Below, piece by piece: positions 1-3,769 of a stretch of 34,383 nucleotides of DNA. Position numbers and translations under genes: made by a program. Position 1 is the first letter of the stretch; each line of letters begins with the position of its first letter. Where the stretch lies: NCBI GenBank assembly GCA_022791775.1, contig JAAVZT010000011.1, positions 1 through 34,383 of the forward strand. The letters run 5' to 3'. Source of the DNA: Bacilli bacterium (GTDB lineage Bacteria; Bacillota_I; Bacilli_A; RF39; UBA660). The notes beneath the pieces were generated by a model. The model saw nothing but the letters and a program-made list of their open reading frames with translations, did no database searches and had not been told where the DNA came from.

Positions 1-648
1 CATATATTGGAAGTTAATAAATCTCGGAAAATATATTTTCCTTGTTCATCTTTTTCATTCCAATAAGGTAAACTTAAAATCGCTTGAACTTGATCTACAT
101 TACTATTCCATATATTGGAAGTTAATAAATCTCGGAAAATTAGATTTCCTTGTTCATCTTTTTCATCCCAATAAGTTAAACTTAAAATGGATTGTATTTT
201 ATCTACATTACTATTCCATATATTGGAAGTTAATAAATTTCGAAAAATATATTTTCCTTGTTTATCTTTTTCATCCCAATAAGGTAAACTTAAAGTCGCT
301 TGGATTTGATCTACATTACTATGCCATATATTGGAAGTTAATAAATCTCGGAAAATTAGGTTTCCTTCTTGATCAGTTTTCTTCCATTCTAGTATACTTA
401 AAATCGCTTGGACTTGATCTATACTACTATTCCATATATTGGAAGTTAATAAATCTTTGAAAATTAGGGTTTCTTCTTGATCGGTATCCCTCCATTTTGA
501 TAAACTTAAAATGGATTTTATTTGATCTACATTACTATTCCATATACTTGAAATTAATAAATCTCGAAAAATATATTTTCCTTGTTCATCTTTTTCATCC
601 CAATAAGGTAAATCTAAAATTTCTAACATTTTAATATAACTTCTTTTG
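1..648 (-). repeat. Six tandem 108-bp coding repeats
   Basis: The sequence catatattgg or a close variant recurs at 1, 109, 217, 325, 433 and 541, exactly every 108 bases (36 codons). The three leftmost units are nearly identical at the DNA level, including silent positions. The units nearest the start codon (325-648) carry more substitutions, mainly in the second half of the unit. The array continues past the left edge, so the copy number is a minimum. Confidence 0.95.
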
Positions 649-728
649 GCCAATCTTTTATTATTTAAAGATTCCAACCCTTTATCTTTTAATATCTTTT
701 GAAATAAAACATATTCATCCGGATACAT
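1..728 (-). CDS. Tandem 36-residue helical-repeat protein (partial, C-terminus beyond window)
   Basis: Function not recognised. The frame opens with ATG at 728-726, preceded on the minus strand by GGGGCGAGG, a good ribosome binding site, and stays open to the left edge. A unique N-terminus of about 35 residues (starts MYPDEYVLFQKILKDKG) is followed by six copies of a 36-residue unit. The unit can be described as D-L-L-T-S-N-I-W-N-S-N-V-D-Q-I-Q-A-I-L-S, then L-P-Y-W-D-E-K-D-E-Q-G-K-Y-I-F-R. Conserved leucine/isoleucine spacing and two tryptophans suggest two short helices per unit forming a solenoid. There is no signal peptide or membrane segment, so it is probably cytoplasmic. It lies downstream of pyk but behind a terminator. 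Length and spacing recall helix-pair repeats that bind nucleic acid or protein (mTERF, TALE, PPR, TPR), but I see no diagnostic motif of any of these. Confidence 0.8.
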   Translation of the reverse strand, partial: MYPDEYVLFQKILKDKGLESLNNKRLAKRSYIKMLEILDLPYWDEKDEQGKYIFRDLLISSIWNSNVDQIKSILSLSKWRDTDQEETLIFKDLLTSNIWNSSIDQVQAILSILEWKKTDQEGNLIFRDLLTSNIWHSNVDQIQATLSLPYWDEKDKQGKYIFRNLLTSNIWNSNVDKIQSILSLTYWDEKDEQGNLIFRDLLTSNIWNSNVDQVQAILSLPYWNEKDEQGKYIFRDLLTSNI

Positions 729-784
729 TACCTCGCCCCTTTTTTTCGAATTACTATAACACAAATATATTACATTTTCAATTA

Positions 785-815
785 AAAAAAGATTCTACTT
801 TTTAGAATCTTTTTT
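785..815 (-). terminator. Intrinsic terminator of pyk
   Basis: Arms gattcta (791-797) and tagaatc (803-809) pair perfectly. Flanking A and T runs extend the stem and supply a U-tract in both directions. It lies about 45 bases beyond the pyk stop and ahead of the repeat-protein gene. Confidence 0.85.
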
Positions 816-858
816 ATTAATATCTCCTAATTGAGGTTCACATCAAATTGCTGTTTTT

Positions 859-2503: not shown

Positions 2504-3769
2504 ATGACAAACTACAATTTATTTATTCAATCCAAACTTCCAAATATATTAAATTTAGAAGAATTACTAAACTATTTCGAAAAATATCATAAAGGTGATC
2601 AAGAAGCAAGAGAAATCATTATCAATCACAATTTAAAACTAGTTATAAATCGCGTACTAACCAAATTTTTAAATACCCCATATGATACAAACGAACTGGT
2701 ATCCGTAGGAATAATAGGTTTAATTAAAGGAGTTGATACATTTGATATAAATAAAAAGATAAACTTTTCTACTTATGCCATCCGATGCATTGATAACGAA
2801 ATATTAATGTTTTTAAGAAAAAACAAAAAGCATTTAAAGGTAGATAGTCTAGATCAAAAAATAAATATAGAGGAAAAAAAACTAGAATTAAAAGACACTT
2901 TACCAGATAATACCCAAAATTTAGTAAAAGATTATGAAAAAAAAGAAAGTTATCAAATTCTATATCAAGTAATCGAAAAATTAAATAAAAGAGATCAACA
3001 AATTATCACTTTAGCATTTGGCTTATATAATCAAAAACCAGAAACGCAAAAACAAATTGCTAAAAAATTAAATGTATCACAATCTCAGGTATCAAGATTA
3101 ATAAAGCAAATACTAAAAATATTAAAAAAAGAATTAGAACAAAATCCAAAATTAACCCAAAAAGAGAAAGGAAAAAAAGCTATGCCAAGAAAAACCCAAA
3201 CTATTTATGAATATTTTAATCAATATTCCAAAATACAGATTAATCAAATGATTGAAAGCTTATCAGAAGAAGAGAAAAAAATCTTTAACCTTCGTTTTGG
3301 AAACGATTTAGAAAAAGAACCACAAAAAAACGATGAATGGAACAATGAACAAAGAGATTTATACTATGGAAAGTTACTTCCAAAAATGAAGCGAATTCTT
3401 AAAAATGCTACAAAAGAAAATAAAAATATAGAACAAAAAACTTCTAAAGTTTTATTAAAAATGCAATCTGTCTCTTCTCCAAACAATGAAAGTACAAAAC
3501 AAAATTATCAAATAATTTGCCAAATGCTTCAAACACAAAATTTTTTTCAATTACTGTCGTCTATTTCCCTAAAAGAAGCAATTATTTTCACCTTAAAATT
3601 TGGATGTATAAATGGAAAAATTTATTCAAATCAAAAAATAGCTGAATTTTTAGAATTAGAAGAAAAAGAAGTATTAGAAACAACCAAAAAAATATTATTG
3701 TTATTAAAAGAAAACATAAATCAATTAATAGATCATACTATTACAAACGAAAATTCAAGAACTCTTTAG
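2504..3769 (+). CDS. SigE/SigK-like RNA polymerase sigma factor with long C-terminal extension
   Basis: Residues 25-112 form sigma-70 region 2 of the SigE/SigK type: NHNLKLV (41-47), the ELVSVGIIGLIK-VDTFD helix (64-81) and YAIRCIDNEILMFLRKNKK (91-109), typical of sporulation-type factors. There is no region 3. Region 4 follows (about 150-210), with a helix-turn-helix at TQKQIAKKLN-VSQSQVSRLI (181-200). Ordinary family members end near residue 215-240; this one has about 200 more residues. Residues 246-300 hold a module with SLSEEEKKIFNLRFGNDLE and YGKLLPKMKRIL. Residues 345-405 hold another region-4-like segment with SNQKIAEFLELEEKEVLE. The start is fixed by AGGTGAT just before the ATG. The aminopeptidase follows 71 bases later on the same strand. 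Whether the organism sporulates cannot be judged here; the factor could serve another regulon. Confidence 0.88.
   Translation: MTNYNLFIQSKLPNILNLEELLNYFEKYHKGDQEAREIIINHNLKLVINRVLTKFLNTPYDTNELVSVGIIGLIKGVDTFDINKKINFSTYAIRCIDNEILMFLRKNKKHLKVDSLDQKINIEEKKLELKDTLPDNTQNLVKDYEKKESYQILYQVIEKLNKRDQQIITLAFGLYNQKPETQKQIAKKLNVSQSQVSRLIKQILKILKKELEQNPKLTQKEKGKKAMPRKTQTIYEYFNQYSKIQINQMIESLSEEEKKIFNLRFGNDLEKEPQKNDEWNNEQRDLYYGKLLPKMKRILKNATKENKNIEQKTSKVLLKMQSVSSPNNESTKQNYQIICQMLQTQNFFQLLSSISLKEAIIFTLKFGCINGKIYSNQKIAEFLELEEKEVLETTKKILLLLKENINQLIDHTITNENSRTL

Follow-up and report, generated by a model that had tools for sequence, protein, structure and literature searches.

A gene for a tandem-repeat protein, cut by the contig end, lies at the edge of the stretch of DNA analysed here and belongs to an undescribed family of arrays in MAGs of gut and rumen Bacilli. 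We lean slightly towards reading its product as a modular solenoid that would recognize nucleic acid, presumably DNA, as a distant relative of the pTERF proteins and in concert with a partner protein. The pTERF proteins are prokaryotic mTERF-like tandem-repeat proteins from gut Bacillota MAGs with specific DNA binding (Hu et al. 2024, PMC11417379). The founding member, pTERF1, also from a gut Bacillota MAG, binds ACTNNNAGTC with a Kd of 1.87 nM, while pTERF2 binds another motif (PMC11417379). The first description of prokaryotic mTERF-like proteins dates from 2024 and drew on a few dozen sequences. The arrays add to these a branch that is distinct in sequence and unannotated; its arrays are long, its units vary clearly at one position and its partner gene is constant, and these features make the question of what such solenoids do a testable one. 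New here are the constant acidic partner gene, the hypervariable unit position and a copy, the one in the window, that carries a tail of pnp.

The array gene in the window and its second copy

The window is the entire contig C21 (34,383 bp) of the source genome G000, a MAG of 1.1 Mb in 36 contigs, and truncation of the array is therefore due to the end of the assembly and not to the choice of window. The array gene is a single open frame on the minus strand (window 3-728, ATG at 728-726) that is stop-free to the contig edge; the remaining array, the C-terminal domain and the partner gene fall beyond it. The exact 108-bp periodicity described in the earlier note is borne out by TRF (5.7 copies over window 1-620, score 798) and is far beyond chance. 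The units are also in frame after a unique N-terminal cap, as claimed there: 39 cap residues are followed without gaps by 5.7 units of 36 residues (five complete, one partial), each complete unit being exactly 36 codons, and the fixed Trp and Leu positions are seen across the window units. The features, all on the minus strand, are the following.

784-818, minus strand: pnp-derived tail and terminator (GATTCTAAAAAGTAGAATCTTTTTTT), from BLASTN to the second locus on contig C6; the equivalent sequence ends pnp in same-genus genomes
753-781, minus strand: putative sigma-70-like promoter, TTGAAA-17-TATAGT with extended TG, 10 of 12 matches, at a chance expectation of 1.6 such sites in the AT-rich stretch around it
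731-740, minus strand: ribosome binding site (AGGGGCGAGG), read directly, a good site
612-728, minus strand: N-terminal cap, 39 residues, MYPDEYV...MLEILD; caps are homologous in relatives
504-611, minus strand: unit 1, LPYWDEKDEQGKYIFRDLLISSIWNSNVDQIKSILS
396-503, minus strand: unit 2, LSKWRDTDQEETLIFKDLLTSNIWNSSIDQVQAILS, divergent
288-395, minus strand: unit 3, ILEWKKTDQEGNLIFRDLLTSNIWHSNVDQIQATLS, divergent
180-287, minus strand: unit 4, LPYWDEKDKQGKYIFRNLLTSNIWNSNVDKIQSILS
72-179, minus strand: unit 5, LTYWDEKDEQGNLIFRDLLTSNIWNSNVDQVQAILS
3-71, minus strand: unit 6, of which the contig end leaves the first 23 residues

The earlier note had seen a gradient in which units far from the start are nearly identical even at silent sites and those near the start differ, and had placed recent duplication or gene conversion on the distal side. 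Comparison of the units does not support this. Unit 1 differs from unit 4 at 7 of 108 nucleotides and from unit 6 at 5 of 69, and units 4 and 6 are equally close to each other, whereas units 2 and 3 differ from unit 1 by 26-31 nucleotides. Units 1, 4, 5 and 6 thus form a similar set with 2 and 3 divergent, without any trend from the proximal to the distal side. Taken together, the silent sites have not stayed fixed (pooled NG86 pS 0.215, pN 0.177). Raw codon counts had hinted at positive selection between units, but the NG86 pN/pS ratios of 0.25-1.0 do not point to it.

AlphaFold predicts a confident, regular solenoid for the window protein (pLDDT 89.6, pTM 0.81) and a solenoid for a full-length relative, L043 (pLDDT 94.6). 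The two short helices per unit that had been proposed come close to this model, which has three short helices and a small hairpin; the hairpin is formed by the six-residue insertion that takes the unit from 30 to 36 residues. The modelled solenoid agrees with the three-helix modules of about 30 residues of the mTERF/pTERF superfamily. A Foldseek search of the PDB gave no significant match to any solved structure; the weak matches that recurred were the mTERF1-DNA structure 3n7q (E 1.1, TM 0.39), 5cky, BurrH and TAL effectors. Elsewhere in the window, at 2504-3769, we noticed a gene for a sigma-factor-like protein in which a long extension, perhaps with an extra region-4-like segment, comes after regions 2 and 4.

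G000 harbors a second copy of the array gene, complete but short, behind pnp on contig C6 (L003:9930-10481). It encodes one 36-residue unit, then units of the 30-residue type and the C-terminal domain, and its end is overlapped by a 94-residue gene. ATC stands where the ATG is expected, so that translation may be poor or start only from a later site. The 334 bp that the two loci have in common, at 95% identity by BLASTN, take in the pnp end with its terminator, and the homology starts at window position 818. The window array sits behind pyk. In two genomes of the same genus (G002 and G005) the terminator is pnp's own, and no array stands at either the pnp or the pyk site. Since the window copy carries the pnp tail, and this terminator belongs to pnp in the same genus, the window copy most likely derived from the pnp locus. 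Same-genus genomes (L093, L094) have a collagen-like GPTGPQ gene after pyk; G000 has a gene of this kind where contig C6 ends (L003:11539-12069), beyond the other array copy.

Elsewhere the arrays are found among co-directional housekeeping genes (ligA, polA-mutM, ogt, prfA-prmC, alaS, rpmA, and ligD together with a DNA-repair radical SAM gene). The sites differ from genome to genome, and no mobile-element signature was seen in the loci read. That the sites vary, and stand empty in close relatives, suggests frequent gain, loss or movement of array genes. Array operons (loci L043, L045, L047, L048 and L058) seem to lie next to genes for DNA repair or replication, namely ligA, a MutS2-like gene, polA and mutM, ogt, ligD and rSAM_link_UDG, more often than expected, an impression formed post hoc.

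Relatives, the partner gene and kinship with pTERF

The window unit has no match in Pfam or NCBIfam, and scans with Pfam, NCBIfam and PADLOC gave only spurious or sub-threshold single-unit matches. A first scan of genome contigs with the single protein as query found no match, viral contigs held no relative, and a PDB sequence search with two profiles returned nothing significant. When 60 relatives were searched with a single sequence, a match appeared in G015, where the units have 30 residues and the gene is split over two contig ends. With a C-terminal query, matches came from 18 genomes among 291 in the taxonomic family of G000. Scanning genome contigs with a profile yielded 18 loci, from MAGs of gut and rumen that carry the labels Bacilli, Clostridia, Erysipelotrichaceae or Tenericutes. 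Sampling across the class gave matches in 11 of 395 genomes, and those that were strong all fell within the taxonomic family of G000.

The core architecture is constant: a cap, 2 to about 20 units at an exact spacing of 30 residues, and a conserved C-terminal domain. Units of 36 residues occur, within this array family, in G000 only. The biggest array gene seen encodes 793 residues, about 20 units judged by length. In more distant forms the N-terminal domain is longer and the units have 29-30 residues. Some loci hold two array genes (L046:1-4004 and L047:3882-6750), in the orders array-partner-array, with a second array of 793 residues, and array-array-partner. A close relative of the cap lies between prfA and prmC in a chicken gut Bacilli genome (L055:5872-6617), where the array gene is broken up over several frames, either by a frameshift or through faulty assembly. 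We also came across other unannotated tandem solenoids (L082, 754-2991; L089, 379-2148; L030, 1-1932) with units of 33 (NLLDLLKDCPSILAHGKVEEIKNIL) or 29 residues (ADEIEKIIEVCKQNNIEPKGNIFTKS).

An acidic ORF of about 90 residues adjoins an array at all 29 core loci examined, that is at 18 of 18 fetched contigs and at 11 further loci (G000 C6, G015, G107, G113, G118 C2, G133, G164, G178, G179, G225 and G257). It lies 3' of an array in 28 of the 29 and 5' in G015; it is missing beside two distant forms (L029, L030) and weak at L040. The partner proteins are always acidic (pI 4.0-4.9), and the gene carries no annotation. The partner shows no similarity to the pTERF profile. Solo relatives of the partner touch or pass the Pfam mTERF threshold (L088 at 24.8 bits, cut-off 23.1), a hint, transitive through L088 and L087, that the partner may be an mTERF-like single module.

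For comparison with pTERF we used Pfam mTERF matches as stand-ins for the sequences of PMC11417379. The C-terminal domain of the relatives and the C6 copy aligns to that of the pTERF-type proteins with an hhalign probability of 93.8 and a P of 1.7e-7; its score of 46.7 compares with a maximum of 27.4 in column shuffles (0 of 200 reached it). With the last units included, the P value is 1.2e-4 and the register matches (LTPTIWNSN with LPALYGYSI). Taken by itself, the array profile led by the window does not resemble that of pTERF (P 0.34). PF02536, the Pfam mTERF family, does not match the window protein, nor any protein of G000 even at E 10, while pTERF-type genes of related genomes pass it (21 of 291 genomes in the same taxonomic family over the cut-off). 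The N-terminal domain of one subfamily was also compared and is not claimed as pTERF kin: at P 0.031, its score of 21.5 barely tops the highest shuffle score, 21.3. In the PDB sequence search this domain drew mTERF1 at E 3.3, a lead only.

At the level of profile alignment, then, the C-terminal domain is of common ancestry with that of pTERF-type proteins, and common ancestry of the repeat unit is likely. The window copy is cut before the C-terminal domain, hence the kinship rests on the relatives and the C6 copy. We claim ancestry and not mTERF membership, because the array fails PF02536 and gives no signal alone. Because it falls below the mTERF threshold and is acidic, the array family is a pTERF relative that probably works alike, rather than a filed mTERF member. 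The earlier verdict that the family is unknown thus holds for Pfam, NCBIfam and PADLOC and gives way where the C-terminal domain of the relatives proves homologous to that of bacterial mTERF-like proteins. Many more mTERF-like tandem-repeat proteins over the Pfam cut-off occur in the same family of small gut genomes, for example L062 and L071-L079 (G091, G313, G181, G109, G089, G092, G225, G102, G252, G024), some with nearly identical 36-residue units.

A hypervariable position and what the arrays may recognize

Across 12 related arrays of 30-residue units, position 24, the x in IW-x-SN, varies most inside an array: it ranked first in 7 of 12 and first or second in at least 9, and came out on top in 1996 of 2000 bootstraps. 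Its residues are N, Q, K, H, S, R or T in 87% of cases and its neighbours are strongly conserved; position 21 is mostly N, T or S. The window units have N, N, H, N and N at the IW-x-SN position. The aligned place in pTERF-type units (+1, +4 and +5 from the Pro) is variable too, not uniquely. Together with the AlphaFold models, the single hypervariable polar position backs the modular recognition solenoid proposed in the earlier note. The pattern at position 24 is that expected of a reader with one residue per module, and it also suits protein recognition.

Charge has to be weighed here. With a pI of 4.9 and a net charge of -2 per unit, the window array is acidic, as several relatives are, whereas all eight pTERF-type proteins measured are basic (pI 8.4-9.2), a property that does not formally define the mTERF/pTERF superfamily. 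Such a charge speaks against simple DNA binding by the acidic members, among them the window array. A solenoid that binds protein, a scaffold or recognition module used as ankyrins are, with mTERF kinship of the C-terminal domain as fold ancestry only, is a possible though improbable explanation; its ligand could be the acidic partner itself or some other protein, whether of the cell, of a phage or of a surface. The acidic arrays (besides the window, L046 and L047, both pI 5.1), weak structural matches to ankyrin and the partner gene fixed at all core loci speak for it. However, ankyrin, TPR or other protein-binding repeats gave no accepted Pfam match, the nearest profile kin is of a DNA-binding kind, and among the relatives, which span pI 5.1-9.4, many are neutral to basic (pI 8-9.4).

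The pair could also be a selfish or addictive cassette, for instance toxin-antitoxin-like, kept by linkage and not for a cellular job. Its patchy presence in the 18 of 291 family genomes, the sites that differ between genomes and stand empty in the same genus, copying within a genome along with a piece of pnp, and the small, very acidic partner would all fit, but PADLOC gave no convincing match and the loci read have no mobile-element signature. To our knowledge the unit number and sequence of the arrays are also far more variable than in known toxins, which counts against a cassette, and we regard it as unlikely. That repeat collapse or a chimeric join made the array or its place behind pyk is very improbable: the array runs to the contig end and its upstream stretch is common to the pnp locus, yet the two copies, with about 5% of sites different and unlike units downstream, are distinct, and the same architecture recurs in many independent MAGs from different assemblies.

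We therefore return to the nucleic-acid-reading solenoid. The array protein would be a cytosolic alpha-solenoid of tandem 36-residue modules of three short helices, each presenting one main variable polar residue (IW-x-SN) to nucleic acid, so that the row of modules could read a sequence. The small acidic partner would work with the array, perhaps capping it or regulating it by competition with the target. Unit duplication would let arrays grow and diversify, and whole array genes would be copied between sites behind housekeeping genes, here most likely from pnp to pyk. Only tentatively, and with considerable doubt, do we extend this to a two-protein recognition system confined to genome-reduced gut Bacilli, in which up to about 20 modules would read nucleic acid through mainly one residue each, an obligate acidic partner (an mTERF-like single module) would exert control and duplication would remodel arrays inside housekeeping operons. 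If position 24 reads bases, the arrays would offer a compact, possibly programmable, recognition code.

Comparison with known repeat systems

The octotricopeptide repeat (OPR) has a 38-residue unit with a PPPEW motif. The MPEW motif in the relatives may resemble it; the unit length is different. Ankyrin repeats resemble the arrays in the paired short helices and hairpin of the 36-residue unit; they differ in that Pfam gives no match and structural matches reach only E 1 or above. TAL effectors and BurrH are likewise built of nearly identical modules in tandem, in which one or two residues are hypervariable, and they recur among the weak structural matches. However, there is no significant match in sequence or structure (Foldseek E above 1, no Pfam match), and module, length and cap are unlike those of the array.

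The eukaryotic mTERF family (PF02536) has three-helix repeats of about 30 residues as well, but its repeats are not near-identical tandem copies (PMC11417379), and the arrays do not match PF02536. Like the arrays, pTERF proteins have tandem three-helix modules (3-11 units in pTERF), come from uncultured gut Bacillota MAGs and carry the homologous C-terminal domain, and both types are found in the same taxonomic family. In contrast to the pTERF unit GYTKEEVIKMTKxLPALYxYSIENIKQK, the unit here has 30 or 36 residues with the motifs LLTSxIWxSN and LPYW or MPEW. The arrays are often acidic and lack a Pfam mTERF match, and they have a linked partner, whereas none was seen beside pTERF-type genes in the flanks read.
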